Source: an uncultured Clostridium sp.
Lineage (GTDB): Bacteria; Bacillota; Clostridia; Lachnospirales; Lachnospiraceae
Direction: 5' to 3'
Length of the DNA: 64,000 bases
Assembly: GCA_947644195.1 (NCBI GenBank)
Contig: CANRZB010000001.1
Span: forward strand, 1 to 64,000
Both the position numbers and the translations under genes were made by a program. The notes under the pieces are model-generated. The model had not been told where the DNA came from. It searched no databases and saw nothing but the letters and a program-made list of their open reading frames with translations. Positions 48,379 to 63,537 of this stretch are shown piece after piece; position 1 is the stretch's first letter; every line of letters begins with the position of its first letter.

Positions 48379-50070
48379 CTATTGTGCTGTCTGGCTATCC
48401 GGCTGAACTGCATCACCAGTCTGCCCTTCTTCCTCGGTCTCCGCAATAACATACTGTGCTGTTACCGTAAAGTCATATGTAATCTCATTATCATGATCAT
48501 TCATCGTTACCGTTGGTATCACAAAATTGGTTAGTGTCGTCAATTTCTTCTCCAATGTAATCAGCATCTGCGCCACAGAAATTTTGGTCTTCGTACTAAT
48601 CGTCATGGAAACCCCTTCCGAGCTAGAATTAAAATTAGTGACCATCATTTGCCGCGGCAAATTATTCTCTAACTGTTCCAACAGCTTACTTAACTGTTCA
48701 TTCTGATTCTTGGTCCCATCGTTTAACGTTTTGACTTCTTCAAATGCCTTTTTTGCTGCCGCATTTTCCTGATATACTTCATTAATATACGCCAACTGGC
48801 CCTTTTGTTCCTTAAATTTTGCATTATCTTTCTGTGCACGACTTAACTGAATCCAAGCAACCCCTACTAAAACGACCGCAGCAGCCACCATCACGCCAAA
48901 AATCAGATGCACAATCTTCATACTTTCCGCCTGGCTCTGCTTCGCCGTCATAGATTTCAAACGGAACCCTACCGGCTCAATCGCTGCACCAATCGCTGCG
49001 ATGTATTCCGTCTGATCCTGCAAACTACGCGCAAAGCCGCGGGAAAACGTAATGTTTGACAATTTCTCTAAACGACGTACCGGCAAATCCATCTCTTTCT
49101 CAAACAGGATATCAATGCCACGGATCTTGACGCCCATACCAGTAATATAGGTATGACTGAGTGAACAATCCGGGTAACGGGAATTAAAGTAATCAACGAC
49201 TCGGATTACACTGAGAAGAATTCCACCTACAGCATCCGTTACCGCTTTTCTGGCATCTCTGTTATAGTTAGAACGGCTGATCTGGTCTTCCGTCATACGG
49301 GTACTACGCACCGCTTCAATATCATCATAATCCAAAGTGGTAAAAATAATATTTTCCCGGCACAGCATCTCCATCGCTTCTGTCTGATCATGGACTCCTA
49401 ATGCCGTTTGCTCAATCATGGTATCCAAAATTGTATTCACACCATACGGTATTGTACGCTGCATGATCTGCTGGCTTTCCCGCAATACACTTACCATGGT
49501 GTTCAGAGAACCAATCTGTACGCTGACGCAGTACCCGGATCCAATATGCTTCTGTAACACCTGCATGGAACCATTACCATAGTAATCAATGGATTCCACA
49601 TGTACACCTAATGTATCTGCCAGACTGTAATAATTCTGAATCAAAGTATCCGGTGCAGCCAGAAGTAATAACTTCAAACTCTTTTTGTCTGCTTCCTTGA
49701 CAATGTCCAAAACATTATAAGCCAGAGTATATTCCTCCATATTGACTGGAAAATAATCCTGCGCTGTGGCATTAATCAAGTCACCAATCTTATTTTCCGG
49801 CACATACGGTACAACGGTCTCACGGCTGGCAATCTTGCTGGAGGCAATCGAGAAGACCACATCTTTCTCCTTGACTCCATTCTCCCGAATCTGCGCTTTA
49901 ATTAACTGCGCAATCGCATCTTTATTCTTGATATAACCATCTTCCATTGCATCCGGTGGTGTATCAAAAGAAAATGCATTATACACATGAGGATTCTTCC
50001 GCAGATAATCCACGACTACCGCCTTGGTTACCTGCTGTCCAATTTCAATACTCAATACCTTTTTTGCCAT
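48379..50070 (-). CDS. pilM: PilM-PilN fusion protein
   Basis: PilM actin-like part (VLSIEIGQQVTKAVVVDY...VFSIASSKIASRETVVPYVPENKIGDLINATAQDYFPV), then one TM (KIVHLIFGVMVAAAVVLVGVAWIQL), coiled coil and PilN-like periplasmic-type domain. Confidence 0.85.
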   Translation of the reverse strand: MAKKVLSIEIGQQVTKAVVVDYLRKNPHVYNAFSFDTPPDAMEDGYIKNKDAIAQLIKAQIRENGVKEKDVVFSIASSKIASRETVVPYVPENKIGDLINATAQDYFPVNMEEYTLAYNVLDIVKEADKKSLKLLLLAAPDTLIQNYYSLADTLGVHVESIDYYGNGSMQVLQKHIGSGYCVSVQIGSLNTMVSVLRESQQIMQRTIPYGVNTILDTMIEQTALGVHDQTEAMEMLCRENIIFTTLDYDDIEAVRSTRMTEDQISRSNYNRDARKAVTDAVGGILLSVIRVVDYFNSRYPDCSLSHTYITGMGVKIRGIDILFEKEMDLPVRRLEKLSNITFSRGFARSLQDQTEYIAAIGAAIEPVGFRLKSMTAKQSQAESMKIVHLIFGVMVAAAVVLVGVAWIQLSRAQKDNAKFKEQKGQLAYINEVYQENAAAKKAFEEVKTLNDGTKNQNEQLSKLLEQLENNLPRQMMVTNFNSSSEGVSMTISTKTKISVAQMLITLEKKLTTLTNFVIPTVTMNDHDNEITYDFTVTAQYVIAETEEEGQTGDAVQPDSQTAQ

Positions 50071-50239
50071 CTATTCTGTTCCTCCCTGTTTTTTCTCTTT
50101 ATCCACAGTAAAACTTCATCTGTTACCATTCGGTATCACATAGAAAAGTAACCTTGTTCTCAGTTTCACATCACACAAGATTCAACATATGTGCGTTTAC
50201 TGTCAAACCCTCTGGGAAATGAAACTAAATTCCACTACT

Positions 50240-51016
50240 TCATCCTGGCATCGCCAAGCCACACAGTTCCAGATACCACTGAATGACCGGTTCCCCAAAT
50301 AACATCGAAAACCAAATACCAAAGGCCAGATAAGGCCCAAACGCCAGTTTTCGGTCTGCATGGAACGCCAACACCCTTACCGAGTGAATGATAGACCCTG
50401 CCACACATCCCACAATCAATGACAGAATGATTGGTAACGTCCCCAGTGCCAATCCAGCGCCTGTCATCAGCTTGGCATCGCCGCCACCCATCGCGCGGCC
50501 AACGGATAGTAGAAAAATCATCCACAAGACTGCACTGACACATACCATACCGATGAGATGATCCCGCCAATTCGGCCAATCCAATAAGGTCACAAAAATC
50601 CCCAACACCAGGATCACATAGTTTACCTTGTTAGGAATCCGTTTTGTTCGCCAATCTATTACACTTACCACAATTAGGGCGGATGTCAGGAGACAATACA
50701 CGATGCTAGTCAAATTCCAACCGTTTGCCAAGAAAACGATTACATATAATGTCCCATTCAGTCCTTCCACCAGGGGATACTGAAGTGATAATCTGGTATT
50801 ACACTTCCTGCATCTGCCCCTTAAGATCAAAAAACTAAATAGAGGAATCAGATCATACCAACGGAGTTCATATCCGCAATGCATACAATGGGAATTTGCC
50901 AAGAGTGTCTCTTTCTTTGGTTCACGGAAAATACAAACATTTAAGAAACTTCCGATTACCAGGCCGAACAGAAACAATGTTCCATATCCCAATGTCATAA
51001 AAAGCCATTCTGGCAT
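50240..51016 (-). CDS. pilD: Prepilin peptidase
   Basis: GLVIGSFLNVCIFREP, CMHCGYELRWYDLIPLFSFLILRGRCRKC, catalytic VIDWRTKRIPN and GGGDAKLM. Confidence 0.95.
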   Translation of the reverse strand: MPEWLFMTLGYGTLFLFGLVIGSFLNVCIFREPKKETLLANSHCMHCGYELRWYDLIPLFSFLILRGRCRKCNTRLSLQYPLVEGLNGTLYVIVFLANGWNLTSIVYCLLTSALIVVSVIDWRTKRIPNKVNYVILVLGIFVTLLDWPNWRDHLIGMVCVSAVLWMIFLLSVGRAMGGGDAKLMTGAGLALGTLPIILSLIVGCVAGSIIHSVRVLAFHADRKLAFGPYLAFGIWFSMLFGEPVIQWYLELCGLAMPG

Positions 51017-51116
51017 GATCTGATCTCCTATCTGTAATGCTTATCCTTTTTCATTATTATTTCAACGTCATTCAGACACACTGAAAAAATAATACCTTCA
51101 CAAGACTTGCTACTAA

Positions 51117-51620
51117 TTAATCTTCCTCAGATGCAACAAAAGATTTAGAATTCGTCTTATCTACATTACCACTTCCATCCTTAATAAGGTATATCACAGT
51201 CTTACCTGTCGTTGCATCAACAGATATGTTAATATCCTTACCAGTAAACGCTTTTGATTTTAACTGCCCCTTTAATTTTGTATTCAAAGTAGTAATATCT
51301 GTGTTTCCAGGTCTTAATTCCAATAACTCTGTCTCTGTCTTTGCATTTGTTACATCTTTCAGTTTATCAAATGTTGTGTCTCCGCCAACACATGCCTCAC
51401 CAGACTGTGCAATGGCTGATGTAACATCTGTCAACAGTGAGCTAATTACCTGCTGATCCTTGGACTGACGAGATTTCTCCATATAAGGGATAACCTGGCT
51501 GGCTACAACACCAACTAAGATCGCCATGATTGCCATAACGATGATTAACTCTACCAGAGAGAAACCTTTTTCTTCATTTTCATGTAACTGTGTTAAATAC
51601 TTCTTAATTGCCTTCTTCAT
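51117..51620 (-). CDS. pilA: Major type IV prepilin
   Basis: ENEEKG|FSLVELIIVMAIMAILVGVVASQVIPYMEKSRQSKDQQ. Confidence 0.93.
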   Translation of the reverse strand: MKKAIKKYLTQLHENEEKGFSLVELIIVMAIMAILVGVVASQVIPYMEKSRQSKDQQVISSLLTDVTSAIAQSGEACVGGDTTFDKLKDVTNAKTETELLELRPGNTDITTLNTKLKGQLKSKAFTGKDINISVDATTGKTVIYLIKDGSGNVDKTNSKSFVASEED

Positions 51621-51695
51621 AACATTTTCTCCTTTTCTTTCTATTTATTTATTACAAGCTGTCCTTGGCAAACAGCCAATAATACAAGGGTAAAG

Positions 51696-52910
51696 TTATG
51701 CATTCTCTGCCATGTTGTAAATACTGAGCATCGGCGCCATGATCGCCAACATAATCGGCACCACCAATGCTGCCATTAACACGATAATTAATGGTTCCAT
51801 GATCGCAGATACCGCCTGTGTCGCACGTTCCACCTCTTCATCGTAGTAATCTGCTACTTTCTCTAACATTTCCTCCATATTACCCGTTTCCTCACCGATC
51901 TGCATCATATGACATAATAACGGGGGGAACACTTCGGACTGCTCCAATGGCTGGGACAGCGGAACCCCTCGCTCGACCTCTGCCTTGGCATCCTCCACCA
52001 CCACCTGGACTATTCGGTTCGTCATAATCTTAGCCACAATATCAATAGCGCCTACCATGGAAATCCCTGATGCTAACAGGGTACTCAGTGTACGTGCAAG
52101 TCTGGCACAGGCCTGTTTAATAACCATGTCACCAAACACCGGAAGTTTAATGATCAAACGTCCAAAAAACTGAGCTCCCGACTCCGTTTTCATAAAAACC
52201 CGAATTCCAATCACAATGACTGCGATCACTCCTACAAATATGTACCATCTCTTAATTAACATATTGCTCATTGCCACGACAGCCAGGGTAATCGCAGGTA
52301 GTTTTCCACCAGCCTGGTCAAAGGTCTCCTGGAACGATGGCACTACCTTAACCAGCATCAGGATGACTACACCAATAATGACAACCAACAAAATAATTGG
52401 ATAAATCATTGCCTGTGTAACCATGTTTTTAATCTTGGAATCTTTTTCAAAATGTACCGCCATACGTTCTAATGCTGTCTCTAAACTACCAGATGTCTCG
52501 CCGGCCTCCACCATGTGAATCAGGATCTTTGGAAAAACATCATCCCTGGTTCCCATCGCTCCGGCCAATGTATCACCTTTCTCCACCAGCGTCCTGACCT
52601 CCGTCAGTGCATCGTGAAGTTTCTTGTTCTCTGCCTGATCTTCTAACATTTCCAGAGCCTGTATGACGGTTACGCCGGCATGAAGGATACTCTGGAACTG
52701 TTTACAGAACAAAGCCAAGTCTCCAGATTTAACTTTACCTCCAATATTAAAACTAATCTCTTTATTTAATGCATTCGGAACGTCAACCGAGATTGGTGTC
52801 AGCCCCTGCCCTTTCAGGTTTGCTCTAGCCTGATCTAGATTATTCGCTTCAATGATGCCCTTCTTTTGCTTACCGGAATCATCCACCGCAACATAAGCAA
52901 ACTCTGCCAT
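51696..52910 (-). CDS. pilC: Type IV pilus inner-membrane platform protein (PilC/GspF)
   Basis: FAYVAVDDSGKQKKGIIEANNLDQARANLKGQGL, FCKQFQSILHAGVTVIQALEMLE, VEAGETSGSLETALERMA, MMQIGEETGNMEEMLEKVADYYDEEVE. Confidence 0.95.
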   Translation of the reverse strand: MAEFAYVAVDDSGKQKKGIIEANNLDQARANLKGQGLTPISVDVPNALNKEISFNIGGKVKSGDLALFCKQFQSILHAGVTVIQALEMLEDQAENKKLHDALTEVRTLVEKGDTLAGAMGTRDDVFPKILIHMVEAGETSGSLETALERMAVHFEKDSKIKNMVTQAMIYPIILLVVIIGVVILMLVKVVPSFQETFDQAGGKLPAITLAVVAMSNMLIKRWYIFVGVIAVIVIGIRVFMKTESGAQFFGRLIIKLPVFGDMVIKQACARLARTLSTLLASGISMVGAIDIVAKIMTNRIVQVVVEDAKAEVERGVPLSQPLEQSEVFPPLLCHMMQIGEETGNMEEMLEKVADYYDEEVERATQAVSAIMEPLIIVLMAALVVPIMLAIMAPMLSIYNMAENA

Positions 52911-53039
52911 GTGCCTCACCTATTCCTTCCCTGAAACCTTAAGTTCTTACTTCGATTATCTTATCTTCCAAATCTTCCTGCCAAATTTTCTGACACTCTT
53001 TTGACACGAAGATCATATTTTGTTCATAATTTATTAAAA

Positions 53040-53045
53040 ATTATA
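53040..53045 (-). promoter_or_regulatory. Candidate extended -10 element upstream of pilC
   Basis: Minus strand TGTTATAAT in the ~240-bp pilT-pilC gap. Confidence 0.35.
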
Positions 53046-53157
53046 ACACATTAGACTGGTTTTTTTTACATTTTTCTTGACCACTTTGTTATTTTTGTCA
53101 GTATTACACAGATTACTTGCGGTTGAATTAGCAAAAATGACGAAGAAAACATTGCAT

Positions 53158-54219
53158 TTAGAATAGTTTTTTGCGTAATGTGTCTGGATCCTGTGCAAAC
53201 TCAACTGCCTGCGTGGAATCAATCCTGCCATCCATGAAAAGTTTGAAGATTGCATCATCCATCGTAATCATACCCAAATTCTTGCTGGTCTGAATGGATG
53301 AACTGATCTGATGAGTCTTATTCTCACGAATCAGGTTCTGGATCGCCGGTGTCGTATGCATGATCTCGAACGCAGCCACACGTCCTTTCCCATCCGTTGT
53401 AGGAATCAACGATTGAGAGATAACGGAAATCAATACATTCCCCAGCTGCACACGAATCTGCTGCTGTTGATGCGGCGGAAAAACGTCAATCACACGGTCC
53501 ACCGTAGCCGCTGCGCCAATCGTATGCAGGGTAGAGAACACCAGATGGCCTGTCTCAGCGGCAGTAATCGCCGATTGGATTGTCTCCAGGTCACGCATCT
53601 CACCAACCAGAATAACATCCGGGTCTTCACGGAGCGCAGCGCGCAAACCATTGGCAAAAGACATGGTATCCATTCCAACCTCACGCTGGTTGATAATGGA
53701 ACTCTGGTGAAAATGCTCGTACTCGATCGGGTCCTCCATCGTTATAATATGTTCACAGCGTTCCCGGTTAATAATATCAATTAGGGATGCCAATGTCGTA
53801 GATTTACCACTACCGGTCGGCCCCGTTACCAACACCAAGCCACGTTTCTTTTTGGTCAGTTCCACAACAGACGGCGGCAAGCCGAGTGCATCCGCACTGG
53901 GAATCTCCGTACTGATCAGACGAATTACCGTACCCAGCGCTCCCTTCTGCTTCAGTACGTTTACACGGAATCGGCCATTGCCGGGAATGGCATGGGAGAA
54001 ATCCGCCTCTCCCTCTGCTTCCAGGCTATCCCGTAGCCGCTCCGGCACCATCGGCATAATCAATTCCGCTGTGTCCGCAGGAGTTAGCGGCTCTCTGGTA
54101 ATTTTCTGCAATGTGCCATGAACACGACATTTTGCTTCTGTACCTGCAGCCACATGCAGATCGGACGCTCCGATCTTACGTGCCTGTGCCAACAAGTCGT
54201 TGATTGTAAAACTTAGCAT
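53158..54219 (-). CDS. pilT: Type IV pilus retraction ATPase PilT
   Basis: GASDLHVAAG, GLVLVTGPTGSGKSTTLASLID, ALREDPDVILVGEMRDLETIQSAITAAETGHLVFSTLHT. Confidence 0.95.
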   Translation of the reverse strand: MLSFTINDLLAQARKIGASDLHVAAGTEAKCRVHGTLQKITREPLTPADTAELIMPMVPERLRDSLEAEGEADFSHAIPGNGRFRVNVLKQKGALGTVIRLISTEIPSADALGLPPSVVELTKKKRGLVLVTGPTGSGKSTTLASLIDIINRERCEHIITMEDPIEYEHFHQSSIINQREVGMDTMSFANGLRAALREDPDVILVGEMRDLETIQSAITAAETGHLVFSTLHTIGAAATVDRVIDVFPPHQQQQIRVQLGNVLISVISQSLIPTTDGKGRVAAFEIMHTTPAIQNLIRENKTHQISSSIQTSKNLGMITMDDAIFKLFMDGRIDSTQAVEFAQDPDTLRKKLF

Positions 54220-54405
54220 ATTTTTGTCCCCCATTCATTATTTCATTCCCGTGCCCGGATGATTGCATAACATTCCATTCCATGCCATATCAGCAACGGC
54301 TTAACATCCGTATATTTATTACGCAAATACACTGCTGAGTCACACCTATATCATGGAATAATGAAACAACCCAATACCTTCTCAGACTACGGAATTTTGA
54401 TCTTA

Positions 54406-56145
54406 CTACTCATCACCATAGGCCACACGATGTACCTCTTCAACCGTTGTGACACCTTGCAATACATATTGATTTGCAGACGTTACCAACGTCTTCATCC
54501 CTTCTCTGATTGCCTGATTCTCAATCTCCTCTGCTGATCCTCCCCGGACAATGACACGTTTGATCATATTGGATACCGGCAGGATCTCATAGATACCAAT
54601 ACGCCCCTGATAACCGGCACCGCCACACTGCATACAGTCCCCACCTCTGTTTGCCTCTGGCACCAGGATTTCCCTGCTTCGGAATTCCGGCCGAATATGC
54701 ATCTCCTCTTTTTCCAAATCAGTCAAAGGCACCATCTTTTTACACGCCGGACAAACCCGGCGCAACAAACGCTGCGCAATAACTCCAATCAATGCATCTG
54801 CTATCATGTAGCTCTCAATATCCATATCTGCCAGACGGGTAATGGTGCTGGCAGCACTATTCGTATGCAGTGTACTAACCACCAAATGACCCGTAATCGA
54901 AGCCTCTACCGCAATACTAGCTGTCTCCTGGTCTCGGATCTCACCGATCATGATAATGTCCGGATCCTGTCGCAAAATAGAACGGAGAGCAGAAGCAAAC
55001 GTCAGCCCTGCCTTTGGATTGGTCTGCACCTGGTTAATCCCGGCAAGATTTGCCTCCACCGGATCCTCTACAGTAATAATATTTACCCCGACGGTATTCA
55101 ATTCACTTAACGCCGTATATAAGGTAGTGGATTTACCACTACCAGTCGGCCCGGTTACCAGAATAATCCCATGTGGATGGGAAAGGATCTTGTCAAATTT
55201 GATCAGATCCTCCGGCTGGAACCCGAGATCTTTCTTATCCCTGGTCAACGCTTTCTTTTGCGTCAAACGCATTACGACTTTCTCACCATATACAGTTGGC
55301 AGGTTGGACACACGGAGATCGTATTCCTGACGATCCACCACTACGCTCATACGGCCGTCCTGCGGTTTCCTCTTTTCAGAAATATCCATACCGCTGACAA
55401 TTTTGATACGGGCAACCAAAGCCGGAAACAAGGTAATATCATGTTTCATCGCTTCCTGTAACACACCGTCAATACGGAAGCGGATACGAAGCTGTGTCTC
55501 CATTGGTTCAAAATGAATATCACTGGCCCTTCTATGTACTGCCTGCTCCACAATCTGATTCAGCAGTCGGACAATCGGAGCCTGTTTGATCTCCTCGGAC
55601 TCTTCCTCCTTCTGCCCCCGGTTTCCATACCGTTCATTGTGTTCCTGCGTGAACTGATCCGCCATCTTCATCGCTTCTGCGTTTCCAAAGTAACGGTCCA
55701 GAGCCTGCGCCACATCTGCAACAGTGGTAACCTTCGCCTCAATTTGCAGGCCCGTCACAATGGATAAATCGTCGATCGCCGCCAGATCCATCGGATCACT
55801 CATGGCTACTCTGACAACATTGGCATTCCCCGGCAAAAATTCGTATGGCATCAGCATATACTTGCGCAACATTCTCTCGTCCACCAATGCCAATACCTGA
55901 TCCTCAATATGATAATCAGACAGCTTAACTCGCTCCATATTCAACTGCTGGCATAAAGCATCCGCAATTCCATCCTCGGATACCATTCCCAACTCTACCA
56001 AAGTCACACCCAGTTTCTGGCGGACATCACTCTGCTGTTGTGCCTGCAACGCCTCCTGAAGCTGCTCTCTGGTAATGAGGCCTGCATCAATCAACAAATC
56101 TCCTAACCGTCTTTTACGGCGTCCTCTGGAACTAAAACTATCCAT
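54406..56145 (-). CDS. pilB: Type IV pilus extension ATPase PilB with MshEN-like N-terminal domain
   Basis: RLGDLLIDAGLITREQLQEALQAQ / KLGVTLVELGMVSEDGIADALCQQ N-terminal repeats; GPTGSGKSTTLYTAL, ILRQDPDIIMIGEIRDQETASIAVEASITGHLVVSTLHTNSA; tetracysteine C-terminal Zn site. Confidence 0.95.
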   Translation of the reverse strand: MDSFSSRGRRKRRLGDLLIDAGLITREQLQEALQAQQQSDVRQKLGVTLVELGMVSEDGIADALCQQLNMERVKLSDYHIEDQVLALVDERMLRKYMLMPYEFLPGNANVVRVAMSDPMDLAAIDDLSIVTGLQIEAKVTTVADVAQALDRYFGNAEAMKMADQFTQEHNERYGNRGQKEEESEEIKQAPIVRLLNQIVEQAVHRRASDIHFEPMETQLRIRFRIDGVLQEAMKHDITLFPALVARIKIVSGMDISEKRKPQDGRMSVVVDRQEYDLRVSNLPTVYGEKVVMRLTQKKALTRDKKDLGFQPEDLIKFDKILSHPHGIILVTGPTGSGKSTTLYTALSELNTVGVNIITVEDPVEANLAGINQVQTNPKAGLTFASALRSILRQDPDIIMIGEIRDQETASIAVEASITGHLVVSTLHTNSAASTITRLADMDIESYMIADALIGVIAQRLLRRVCPACKKMVPLTDLEKEEMHIRPEFRSREILVPEANRGGDCMQCGGAGYQGRIGIYEILPVSNMIKRVIVRGGSAEEIENQAIREGMKTLVTSANQYVLQGVTTVEEVHRVAYGDE

Positions 56146-56248
56146 AGTCCCCTCCTTCACTATCGTAATCTATCTATTAACGATCTCAGGGCATACAAAT
56201 CCCCAATTTTAACGATCCCTTTCTACAATTATAGTTAATTTTCTAAAA

Positions 56249-56740
56249 TTACGCAATACCCAACTGTCGGAAATACTGGGGAATCATTTCATCCCATGCA
56301 AATTCCAACTGCTTATCCATGGTAAATTCTGGATAGGCCACTCCGGTTACCACTGACAGATGATCCTGCTCATACCGGAAATTCAAAACCAAATCCGGGC
56401 GGTACTGCTGATACAGATCCGCCAGCCCCCTCTGTCCCAATATTTCTGCTGCCCAGCCAGTATCTGCTTTGAGAATTATTTTCATCAATGATGGCGTCTT
56501 ATCGCCTTTGATATAGGAAAATACGGTCGGTTTCATTTCTGACCACCGGACCCATTCTGACAGCAAGGCATCTTCTGCCAGCACATCACTGTCGTACCAT
56601 GCAGTATTCCGGCGTCCCCGCAGAGACATGGAAGCATAGGTGGTAATCTCCGCACTTTCCAGACAAAAGTGGTCAAAACTGTCTCGTACCAGCAAATGCA
56701 CCATCGCTAATTTAATATCAGAAATTTCTAATAAAATCAT
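56249..56740 (-). CDS. Conserved hypothetical protein (possibly DUF5721-like)
   Basis: ORF upstream of pilB with RBS AAGGA; family name recalled from memory and unverified. Confidence 0.55.
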   Translation of the reverse strand: MILLEISDIKLAMVHLLVRDSFDHFCLESAEITTYASMSLRGRRNTAWYDSDVLAEDALLSEWVRWSEMKPTVFSYIKGDKTPSLMKIILKADTGWAAEILGQRGLADLYQQYRPDLVLNFRYEQDHLSVVTGVAYPEFTMDKQLEFAWDEMIPQYFRQLGIA

Positions 56741-57020
56741 AAAATCCTTCTTTCTGTACATACTATTCCCACGACCAATGTACCGCCAGAAAATCTTCTT
56801 TTCATTTCATGGATTTCTGCGGAAACAGACATTTGGTCTTTTTCATAGAGGACACGCAGGCATCCTCTCACTGTCAATGCCTGCTGTTCACATGCATTGT
56901 GGCAAAGACAGCGAAAACTGGCTAAATCAAAGAGAAATCTGACGATTTAACCAATTTGCTGTTTTTGTCACAATTTAATAGACAGTGAAAAAACAAACAT
57001 GGAAACGAGGTGAATGATTT

Positions 57021-57308: not shown

Positions 57309-57353
57309 CCCTTGACGCAGAGTGCCAAATGGGATCTTTCTCTGCGTCAAGGG
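57309..57353 (+). terminator. Strong (probably bidirectional) terminator
   Basis: CCCTTGACGCAGAG / CTCTGCGTCAAGGG 14-bp stem with T tail on +; lies between convergent genes. Confidence 0.85.
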
Positions 57354-57363
57354 GATTTTTATA

Positions 57364-59286
57364 TTAACGACTTACATATACCACCACCGACCGGGGCGGC
57401 ACCACAGTTTTTCGTTGAATCCCCATCTGTTTCCGCCTCTTTTTCGTTTTCTTTTTCGGCTTATGGGGCGGCAATTCTGAAAATGTTTCATCATAGGTTT
57501 CCAGATATACATGCCATTCATTTCCATCTGGCAGCATGGGAAGATCAAAAGACTTTGTCTCCCAAAACATATTAAAAATGATATAAATAGAATCTGCCGG
57601 CTCTCCTTTTTCATCAGTCACGTATCTTCCACTAATGAGAATCCCCAACATTCGACTATAATTCGAAAAATCTGGACGCCAGGTCTCCAATCCATGCGCC
57701 GAGAGATCAGGCACACCACAGGAAATCGTATCCATCAGATGCATCTGTCTTCCCTGATGCAAAACCGGGTTTTCCCGACGAAAGGCAATCAACCGTTTCA
57801 CATAATCATGAATCTGTGTTTTCTGTTTTGATTCCCTCCAATTTAACCAGGTCAATGCATCGTCATGACAATATGGATTATTATTGCCCTCCTGTGTATT
57901 GCCAAATTCATCCCCCGCCAGAATCATCGGAGTTCCCTGACTGAACAACAGCATCAAAAAGGCGTTTCGGATCTGGCGCATCCGCTGGCTAACTACCGCC
58001 TGTTTTCGGCTCTTTCCCTCCACGCCGCAATTCCAACTATAATTAAATTCTGTACCATCCCTGTTATGTTCTCCGTTCGACTCATTGTGTTTGATATCAT
58101 AGGAGACAAGATCCATCATCGTAAAACCGTTGACATGTGTCATATAATTAATGACATCTGCCCCCTGCGGCTTATAATAAAACCGCCGGAAGAAAGATTC
58201 GGTCTGACCTTCATCGCTCTTTAAGAAACGTCTGGCATCATTCATAAAGCCATCGTTATACTCTGCGAGCGCATTTTCCTCATGATGCACACCGGCATCA
58301 GAAAGCGCCTGGGCATCCCAGTAGGAAGCCAGCATCTTTACTCCTGAGAGAATGGGATCCGAGGCAAGGGAAAGAGATGGCATTACCTCCGTGTTGACAC
58401 GAAATCCATCTACATGATAGTTCAAAACCCAACTCCGAAGACAATCAATCATGAGGGCAGGATTTGTTCCAGGCAGAAAATAAAAATCTAACAAAACCTC
58501 AATTCCAGCCAAATGTAAAGCTTTAATCAGAGACTTCAGTTCCTGGTCCGCCTGTTCCACGTCACTGCTGTAGGAAACTTTCGGTGCAAAATAATAGGTT
58601 TCCGATGCACCATATCCCCAATAATTTAACGTCTGTAAATCTGCTTCCACTTCCCCGCCCGGCTGATAAGATGGCTGTATCTCCTGGAATTCATAAGCTG
58701 GCAACAGCAATACCCCATTGATCCCCAGATCCTGAAGATATGGAATTTTTTGCCGAAGACCTTCAAATGTTCCCGGATGCTTGACACGAGATGTAGCATG
58801 ACGTGTATAGCCTCGAACATGCAACTGATATAGAATCATTTCAGAAAAAGGAATATGCAGTGGATGATCCGTATCCCAGTCAAAATCCCGCAAACAGATC
58901 CGTCCTCTTGTCGAAACACCTGAATTTCGCCTGCCCCAGACATTACGGCCAGTGACGGCAGCGGCATACGGATCCACAAGATCTTCCCCATCTGCTTCAT
59001 ACAAATATTCATATTCGTCTGTCAGAATCTGAGATAAGGATGCAGCAGATTCGTTAGAAGAAAGTTGACTCTCTAAGTGTAATAGAACAAAGTATACGCT
59101 GCCGACACGGTATTCATCGGTTAAAGGAATCCGATATTCCGGCTCCGGTTCTCCCAACCGGTATAATTTCAAAAAACATCGTTTCCTGTCTGGTAGATAG
59201 ATCGCAAACTGAACATCATCCTGGACCCTGGTCACTCCCAGCGGCAACGCATGACCGGGTTTTATCTTAAATTTTTGTTTTTTCAT
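57364..59286 (-). CDS. GlgX/isoamylase-like GH13 protein, probable pseudoenzyme
   Basis: CBM48-like N-terminus; GlgX family context motifs (YQLHVRGYTRH, MDLVSYDIKHNESNGEHNRDGTEFNYSWNCGVEG, AGDEFGNTQEGNNNPYCHDDALTWLNW) but catalytic motifs altered (see findings). Confidence 0.85.
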   Translation of the reverse strand: MKKQKFKIKPGHALPLGVTRVQDDVQFAIYLPDRKRCFLKLYRLGEPEPEYRIPLTDEYRVGSVYFVLLHLESQLSSNESAASLSQILTDEYEYLYEADGEDLVDPYAAAVTGRNVWGRRNSGVSTRGRICLRDFDWDTDHPLHIPFSEMILYQLHVRGYTRHATSRVKHPGTFEGLRQKIPYLQDLGINGVLLLPAYEFQEIQPSYQPGGEVEADLQTLNYWGYGASETYYFAPKVSYSSDVEQADQELKSLIKALHLAGIEVLLDFYFLPGTNPALMIDCLRSWVLNYHVDGFRVNTEVMPSLSLASDPILSGVKMLASYWDAQALSDAGVHHEENALAEYNDGFMNDARRFLKSDEGQTESFFRRFYYKPQGADVINYMTHVNGFTMMDLVSYDIKHNESNGEHNRDGTEFNYSWNCGVEGKSRKQAVVSQRMRQIRNAFLMLLFSQGTPMILAGDEFGNTQEGNNNPYCHDDALTWLNWRESKQKTQIHDYVKRLIAFRRENPVLHQGRQMHLMDTISCGVPDLSAHGLETWRPDFSNYSRMLGILISGRYVTDEKGEPADSIYIIFNMFWETKSFDLPMLPDGNEWHVYLETYDETFSELPPHKPKKKTKKRRKQMGIQRKTVVPPRSVVVYVSR

Positions 59287-59454
59287 TTCATTGCTCCATT
59301 CTATCCAGTAATTAAAACATATTTATCATCATGCTTGAAATGCCACCACCGCTCACGAAACAGAGCTGGTTTCCTGACATGTAAAATTCAATGTCTTTTG
59401 ACAATGAATAGTACCATTTTATCATAAGCCCCATAGGGTTTCAACAAAAAAACC

Positions 59455-61547: not shown

Positions 61548-63407
61548 CTACCGTTCTTCTGGATGATTCATGATTTCCCGAATACTCTGCACAATCCGTA
61601 GAATCAGATCCACCCGGCGAAACGGAGTAATCAAATAGTAACCGTCCACATAGGGCGTAATCTCTCTGGCAATCTGCGTCGAGATCTTCCAGGCCAGTTC
61701 CTCTCCCTCCGCCCGGTCTTTTTCCCGATAAGCCTCTATGATCCTTGGATCAACATCAATCCCTGCCATTTCATTATTCATGAAACAGGCATTGCGATAA
61801 CTGACAACAGGCATAATACCGCCTAAAAGTTTGACATCCAATTCCTCTCTGGCCCGCTGTAAATTTTCAAAAGCCCTGACGGTCAAAACAGGCTGTGTAA
61901 ACAAAACACTGACTCCGTTTTCCATTTTCCGTCTGGCGTGACGAAGCTGGCTGTCAAATTGCAGGGCATTAATATTTAACGCCCCACTGACCATAAACGG
62001 ATTATCCTGGAACACTTGCTGGTCCAGCGTTCGGATATGATTGGCCAAAACAGCAGAATTATAACTGAATATCGTCTTGATATCATTTCGTTCTGCTGCC
62101 GGTACCGGATCACCAGTTACTGTCAAGACATTATTGACCCCCTCAATATTCAGACCCAGTAGCAAAGCCTTGGTCGCATTCATGTTGCGGTCTCTACATG
62201 TCATATGCGGAATGACTGGTATTCCGATCTCGCGCATCACTTTGCAGGCCAGGACACTACTGTCAATCCTGGCTCTTGCAATAGGACAATCTGCAATATC
62301 AATGGCATCTACCCCTGCCTGTCGATATCTGGCAGCACCCTCCATAAAAAATCCAATCTCCGGCTCTACCGGTGGATCCAACTCCACTACCAGTACTTTT
62401 TCCCCACGCAGCAATTTTCTGGCAAAGGCATTGCGGTCATTGTTCATTGGATCGGAAGAATCTGAGTACTCCGGCTCCAGGTCTTCCCGCATGGAAGAAA
62501 CCTGAGAACGATCTCTCCCGGAAAGCGGTCTATTCTGTAATTCCTGCTGCAACGCCCGGATATCCTCCGGCCCTGTACCACAACATCCTCCCAAAATAGA
62601 AACTCCTTGTTCCGCCAATGCATGCATACTATGTGCAAAATAACCATGGCTGCTGCCAAAGTAAGTACGGTTACCAACTACCGTTGGATAACCAGCATTA
62701 GGCATGACAGTAATATATTTTCCAGCGTTCTGCACCGGTAATTTTTGAATCATTTCCGAAATATGCTTTGGCCCGGAGATACAGTTAAATCCCACCGCAT
62801 CCACCTCTGGCAACTGCAACGTATTCTGATACAGACTTCTACCGTAAAATCCACTTCGGGTAAATCCTTCCGGCGACACTCCATAAGATACCATTACAAA
62901 AGAGTCTGATATTCTCTTTTTAATATATGCGGTAACTTCTGCTAAGCCTTCCATGGAATCCATTGTCTCAAAGATAAAATAGCGGACATCCTGCTCCAGA
63001 AACCGATCTACCAGAGAAAGATATATCTCCGCTGCAGATCCTCCGTCCGGTGTCTGCACGGGTCCAATATCGGCAAATAAAAAATGCGTATTGTAGCCTC
63101 CTGCCGTTTCTGTACTGGCAATCGCCTCTCTGGCGATCTGTATCCCCCTTTGGATACTCTGCTCCATCTGGTCTGGATCCTGTGAAAAAGTAACTGGATT
63201 TGCTCCAAAAGTATTGGTTTTAATTGCCACTGCACCTGCATCCAGATAAGCACGATGGATTTCTCGAATCACTTCCGGGTGCGTTATATTTAATCTCTCA
63301 CAAATCTCCGTTTGGTATTGTGGATACTGTTCTGAGAGATACGTCCCCATGGCTCCGTCAAATAGCAACGGCTGTCCGGCCAAATATTCCCAAATGTCTT
63401 TTTTCAT
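61548..63407 (-). CDS. Bifunctional homocysteine S-methyltransferase / methylenetetrahydrofolate reductase
   Basis: Hcy MTase motifs DGAMGTYL, GFNCISGPKHI, GGCCGTGPEDI; C-terminal MTHFR motifs VVELDPPVEPE, NVLTVTGDPV, FTQPVLTVRAFENL. Confidence 0.93.
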   Translation of the reverse strand: MKKDIWEYLAGQPLLFDGAMGTYLSEQYPQYQTEICERLNITHPEVIREIHRAYLDAGAVAIKTNTFGANPVTFSQDPDQMEQSIQRGIQIAREAIASTETAGGYNTHFLFADIGPVQTPDGGSAAEIYLSLVDRFLEQDVRYFIFETMDSMEGLAEVTAYIKKRISDSFVMVSYGVSPEGFTRSGFYGRSLYQNTLQLPEVDAVGFNCISGPKHISEMIQKLPVQNAGKYITVMPNAGYPTVVGNRTYFGSSHGYFAHSMHALAEQGVSILGGCCGTGPEDIRALQQELQNRPLSGRDRSQVSSMREDLEPEYSDSSDPMNNDRNAFARKLLRGEKVLVVELDPPVEPEIGFFMEGAARYRQAGVDAIDIADCPIARARIDSSVLACKVMREIGIPVIPHMTCRDRNMNATKALLLGLNIEGVNNVLTVTGDPVPAAERNDIKTIFSYNSAVLANHIRTLDQQVFQDNPFMVSGALNINALQFDSQLRHARRKMENGVSVLFTQPVLTVRAFENLQRAREELDVKLLGGIMPVVSYRNACFMNNEMAGIDVDPRIIEAYREKDRAEGEELAWKISTQIAREITPYVDGYYLITPFRRVDLILRIVQSIREIMNHPEER

Positions 63408-63537
63408 GATAATCCCCACTCCGAAGCGTATGCAACGGGGAGATGAGATATTCGCGCTGGCGATTTCTCATCTCCCATCAAGGCTTATTTGTGACGCTCC
63501 AGCACAAATAGCCAACATAAACATGTACAACGTGACG

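Follow-up and report, generated by a model that had tools for sequence, protein, structure and literature searches.

The window analysed here, a stretch of 64,000 nucleotides that opens contig CANRZB010000001.1 of an uncultured Clostridium sp. of the Lachnospiraceae, carries on its minus strand an intact open reading frame of 640 aa with an ATG start (57364..59286), as the original prediction had it. Its product, P0001, is the representative of what we call pseudo-GlgX and combines a CBM48-like N-terminus (residues 15-108; 58963..59244, minus strand; 19.2 bits in Pfam, just under the cut-off of 22.4), a GlgX-type TIM barrel matched by Pfam as an alpha-amylase barrel yet devoid of the catalytic residues, and a C-terminal beta domain. 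The best NCBIfam model is TIGR02100 (GlgX), at 329.7 bits or about half of its cut-off of 640.9. Upstream of the gene lies a promoter-like site recognised by consensus match (TTGAAA-17-TAAAAT with extended TG; 59416..59444, minus strand), and directly past its stop follows a 14-bp hairpin and likely terminator (57309..57353, minus strand; -27 kcal/mol, z = -4.6). Since pseudo-GlgX thus has its own promoter-like site and a strong hairpin after the stop, it is probably transcribed separately from the genes 3' of it, which read as a type IV pilus/competence-like cluster (48379-56160, minus strand) with PilM-, prepilin peptidase-, pilin-, PilC-, PilT- and PilB-like ORFs. Genes resembling pilB and pilT also lie 3' of pseudo-GlgX at three other loci (L011, L012 and L017). 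A DUF5721 protein is encoded at 56249-56761 (minus strand) and adjoins pseudo-GlgX in many genomes of clade A of the family, and a similar protein is found close downstream at L018, L236 and L252. The ORF at 61548-63419 (minus strand) reads as a fused homocysteine methyltransferase / methylenetetrahydrofolate reductase.

Residues of P0001 were mapped by alignment with E. coli GlgX (L091) and 36 other full GlgX, and their conservation was counted in a larger alignment that sets 142 distinct pseudo-GlgX against 53 full GlgX, where "full" denotes the sequence criterion of intact catalytic residues. The position of the nucleophile, D336 of E. coli GlgX, is occupied by N298 (AAC; 58393..58395, minus strand) in a column that holds Asp in 53/53 full GlgX, Asn in 27/27 clade A members and Asp in none of the 142 pseudo-GlgX. 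At the acid/base position, E371 of the E. coli enzyme, P0001 carries S321 (TCC; 58324..58326, minus strand); Glu is found here in all 53 full GlgX and retained in 12/142 pseudo-GlgX. The former His-Asp pair of region IV reads V385-N386 (58129..58134, minus strand), with N386 corresponding to the stabiliser D443 of E. coli GlgX, an Asp kept by 43/142 members, and region I reads YFLPG (residues 269-273; 58468..58482, minus strand) where full GlgX has V(V/I)xNH, so that LPG stands in place of NH(T/S). All of these substitutions had been read from the letters by the original prediction and are borne out by the alignment. The complete D/E/D triad occurs in 0/142 aligned pseudo-GlgX, and two of the three acids are found together in a single member. 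Shifted but intact catalytic acids are ruled out by the alignment of the 142 pseudo-GlgX with the 53 full GlgX, and orthologs with intact residues, named by the original prediction as a refutation, do not occur within the clade. The former triad positions differ freely between pseudo-GlgX subclades; within clade A, Asn is fixed at both former Asp positions, and N275, N298 and N386 are each present in 27/27 members.

The substitutions are accompanied by two deletions that take out active-site loops, neither of which the original prediction had spotted. Between regions I and II, an ancestral deletion of 44 residues (site at 58410..58480, minus strand) leaves a spacing of 20 residues in 141/142 pseudo-GlgX and 19 in the remaining one, as compared to 64-71 in all 53 full GlgX. 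The segment between regions II and III is shortened by about 13 residues, from 41-43 in full GlgX to 29 in P0001, and one subclade of about 567-630 aa (L172-L174, L189-L205 and L208) also lacks region III and carries the motif HIDGFILNP. Given the absence of the nucleophile and of these loops from the sequence, alpha-1,6-glucosidase activity of pseudo-GlgX appears unlikely, and P0001 is almost certainly a pseudoenzyme paralogue of bacterial isoamylase/GlgX (GH13_11-like).

When about 85,000 genomes were scanned, 49 loci turned up in the same catalytically lost state, and whole-genome searches added many more. In a tree calculated with the catalytic neighbourhoods omitted, 46/46 sampled pseudo-GlgX fall into one clade (SH-aLRT 100) that groups with Firmicutes-type full GlgX, the tree being composed without plant and chlamydial sequences. 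One pseudo-GlgX clade was again recovered in a second tree to which the shortened subclade had been added; both trees are quick searches with a single support measure. The identical deletion in all members independently supports a single origin, and one clade with one common deletion accounts for the data in a way that makes multiple independent losses unnecessary. Among 250 genomes of at least 90% completeness from the family of P0001, identified as Lachnospiraceae by its named close relatives, nearly all sampled as one per genus, 200 carry pseudo-GlgX and 50 do not, which amounts to about 80% of the genera sampled, though some absences of pseudo-GlgX or GlgX from these draft genomes may be gaps. 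Most carriers (177/200) were called by a profile E-value < 1e-130, with 30 among the top ones as well as mid-range ones read directly, and the other 23 were called by reading from motifs or the alignment pattern. An order-wide sample of 294 genomes gave only four hits outside the Lachnospiraceae, all scoring in the range of full GlgX; pseudo-GlgX is confined to this family. The data are best explained by a single origin of pseudo-GlgX at or near the root of the Lachnospiraceae, in which the catalytic residues were lost and two active-site loops deleted.

Purifying selection on pseudo-GlgX is strong. Within clade A, the closest pairs whose synonymous changes can still be counted give dN/dS values of 0.05-0.12 (Nei-Gojobori); the gene in the window and its nearest relative (L011, 80% identity) are too far apart for this measure, with synonymous sites saturated (pS 0.76, pN 0.13). 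Together with the single ancient origin, the presence in about four-fifths of the genera, the invariant residues outside the pocket and the fixed Asn at both former Asp positions in clade A, these values lend good support to the earlier view that selection has favoured a non-hydrolytic role and that the gene is not in decay.

Conservation has moved away from the pocket and stayed in a region known from plant isoamylases. In maize ISA1, the mutations R504C, N561S, W578R and N628K lie away from the active site in a "border lobe", where W578 touches glucan at the secondary binding site SBS2 (PMC12510319). Rice ISA1 has R, N, W and N at the maize positions minus 11, and sequence mapping through this protein aligns them to R352, N401, W418 and N468 of P0001. 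R352 (58231..58233, minus strand; maize R504) is invariant in 142/142 pseudo-GlgX. N401 (maize N561) and W418 (maize W578, SBS2) belong to a motif spanning N401 to G424 (NESNGEHNRDGTEFNYSWNCGVEG; 58015..58086, minus strand), while N468 (maize N628) is part of a second one from G458 to D475 (GDEFGNTQEGNNNPYCHD; 57862..57915, minus strand). N401 is retained in 141/142 members with one gap, N468 in 139/142 with three gaps and W418 in 132/142, the tryptophan being missing in about 6%. Among columns whose conservation in full GlgX reaches 95% or more, pseudo-GlgX retains 5/24 in the pocket (four catalytic segments), 23/30 in the border lobe and 18/35 elsewhere, while another 12 sit in the deleted loops. 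The difference between border lobe and pocket yields a Fisher p of 8.5e-5, a descriptive value given that the segments were picked after the first conservation table. W418 is the sole stated glucan contact among these residues, and the other invariant positions of the lobe may be structural.

The AlphaFold2 model of P0001 (pLDDT 90.6, pTM 0.92) confidently predicts a GlgX/ISA1-like fold, and among solved structures it comes nearest to rice and Arabidopsis ISA1, the ISA1-ISA2 complex, TreX, Chlamydomonas ISA1 with maltoheptaose and Streptomyces GlgX; rice ISA2 ranks lower (TM 0.74). Pseudo-GlgX is homologous over its whole length to bacterial GlgX/isoamylase (TIGR02100, CAZy GH13_11), especially to the full GlgX of Firmicutes, with which it has in common the CBM48-barrel-beta architecture and the border-lobe motifs NGExNRDG, SWNCGxEG and GDExGxxQxGNNNxYCxD. 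It differs from them in lacking the nucleophile and usually the acid/base, in the two deleted loops and in falling short of the TIGR02100 cut-off of 641 with 330 bits. The Streptomyces venezuelae GlgX (7u3a and related structures) that matches the fold of P0001 is, unlike what is expected of pseudo-GlgX, an active enzyme. It is regulated by c-di-GMP, and PMC9530166 reports that the residues involved are conserved in streptomycetes but neither in TreX nor in E. coli GlgX. As they are reported for streptomycetes only, c-di-GMP sensing was set aside as an analogy for pseudo-GlgX.

The nearest parallel is ISA2 of plants and algae, likewise a GH13_11 paralogue of related fold that lost its catalytic residues once, has been retained lineage-wide under selection and occurs alongside glucan storage (PMC12510319). 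Plant ISA2 descends from an Archaeplastida/Chlamydiae isoamylase clade (PMC12510319), whereas pseudo-GlgX groups with bacterial, Firmicutes-type full GlgX in the first tree above, a position by which its origin is apparently independent. The two also differ in their binding sites: plant ISA2 has no SBS2 and keeps two SBS1 tryptophans, while pseudo-GlgX keeps the SBS2 Trp and has loop deletions. With W418 missing in about 6% of members and SBS2 absent from plant ISA2, the analogy is one of mechanism and not part for part. Apart from the plant work, the literature searched, which covered few subscription papers, held no description of an inactive bacterial GlgX or GH13_11 protein. Non-catalytic isoamylase paralogues are already known from plants; what appears to be new here is a bacterial one of apparently independent origin that characterises a whole family.

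The glycogen synthesis gene glgA is nearly universal among the surveyed genomes, with hits in 246/250 including the one carrying P0001, which also has two glgB. Neither a full GlgX, the second and active copy that the original prediction proposed to look for, nor any other intracellular debranching enzyme was recognised in this genome. Its only type I pullulanase has an ORF beginning with a signal-peptide-like stretch and looks exported, and the genome further encodes maltodextrin-glucosidase-like and TreS-like proteins and gives a weak GDE_C match. Across the family, 85/250 genomes have a full GlgX (78 with and seven without pseudo-GlgX), 43 have neither, and no full GlgX was found in 122/200 pseudo-GlgX carriers. 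Pseudo-GlgX is dispensable for making glycogen, as 41 genera with glgA have neither it nor full GlgX.

This distribution bears on a function as obligate inactive partner of an active GlgX, in which heteromers would tune activity or specificity in the way of ISA2 and ISA1. The pattern is already known in plants, and pseudo-GlgX is indeed more frequent in genomes with full GlgX (78/85) than in those without (122/165; Fisher p = 0.0007, uncorrected for relatedness). However, the 122 carriers in which no full GlgX was found, the genome of P0001 among them, mean that such a partnership cannot be the general function; we consider it quite improbable for the family, though it could hold true in genera that have both genes, and the lack of an active partner in most carriers sets pseudo-GlgX apart from plant ISA2. 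A rival reading places the role outside glycogen metabolism, with the barrel as a platform for binding proteins or ligands and tied to conserved neighbours. Candidates are the ABC-F ATPases, exonuclease III and DUF5662 as well as DUF5721 and the pilus genes in the genus of P0001. Genes that recur next to pseudo-GlgX family-wide, as read at L219-L258 and at clade B loci, encode Uup- and YbiT-like ABC-F ATPases, exonuclease III, UvrD, GltX, TraX, DUF5662, LuxS and TrpS. Of these, ABC-F, exonuclease III, TraX and DUF5662 count in favour of this reading, as does the lack of any glycogen gene close by. Yet these housekeeping neighbours vary by clade and resemble ordinary shared gene order, the hairpin separates pseudo-GlgX from the pilus cluster in the window, and the residues conserved in pseudo-GlgX are those of the glucan-binding lobe, which leaves this explanation unlikely. 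A function based on an operon was discarded on the same grounds of housekeeping neighbours that differ between clades, and these neighbours offer no hint of a metabolic role. In the shortened subclade, a sugar-binding-protein-like gene lies directly 5' in 7/8 members placed in L239-L246.

A new catalytic activity through other residues would fit the specific conservation of N275, N298 and N386 in the clade A pocket, but there is no new polar pocket residue among the family-specific conserved positions, the former triad positions are free to vary between subclades and the shortened subclade does without region III altogether, so that we regard this possibility as very doubtful. For a decaying gene or an artefact of assembly or annotation, the loss of catalytic residues is the only point in favour and nothing further; the same state recurs in independent genomes and assemblies with intact ORFs, invariant residues and low dN/dS, and we take selection and distribution together to rule this explanation out.

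We therefore favour, at a probability of roughly 0.55, the reading that pseudo-GlgX as a whole is best explained as an independently arisen protein that binds glucan without catalysis and serves glycogen metabolism as a scaffold or regulator. Against it weigh the housekeeping rather than glycogen genes beside pseudo-GlgX, its dispensability for making glycogen and the absence of W418 from some members. Of the function originally proposed, the non-hydrolytic part is well supported, while glycan binding or regulation is a reasonable extrapolation from the kept border lobe, the SBS2 Trp and the predicted ISA1/GlgX-like fold. Judging from these sequence features, pseudo-GlgX probably binds alpha-glucan; by analogy with plants, it may serve as a scaffold or regulator of glycogen structure or turnover, to which we give slightly less than an even chance. 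ISA1 variants without detectable activity still alter the ratio of soluble to insoluble glucan, and enzyme recruitment or the bringing together of chains have been discussed as routes for inactive ISA1 (PMC12510319). Because the relevant lobe is retained, pseudo-GlgX could act similarly on bacterial glycogen: alpha-glucan chains of intracellular glycogen would be held uncut at the border-lobe site (SBS2), and the protein would organise or mask the outer chains or tether other glycogen enzymes, much as has been proposed for non-catalytic ISA1/ISA2 assemblies on plant glucans. More tentatively, a non-catalytic isoamylase that defines the lineage may have evolved independently in the Lachnospiraceae, one that attaches to glycogen by its border lobe and controls architecture or turnover without cutting, mostly with no active GlgX as partner. 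If true, a major family of gut anaerobes would have its own bacterial counterpart to the non-catalytic function of ISA in plants.

Pseudo-GlgX amounts to a natural experiment, with catalysis taken away and something else retained, and offers a tractable bacterial test of the proposal from plants that isoamylases also play a structural part for which hydrolysis is not needed. The family matters for annotation as well: all 45 A1 members match TIGR02100, and no NCBIfam model dedicated to them was found. Automatic annotation would label hundreds of pseudo-GlgX as glycogen debranching enzymes, so that debranching capacity would be miscounted in genomes and metagenomes of the Lachnospiraceae and glycogen pathways wrongly reconstructed. 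Genomes like that of P0001, with glgA and two glgB but no recognised GlgX, further raise the question by which route their intracellular glycogen is debranched. A relative from the same genus that also carries pseudo-GlgX encodes a tandem pair of full GlgX-like genes (G018:C502:1310-5412), the second of which contains an internal TAA.
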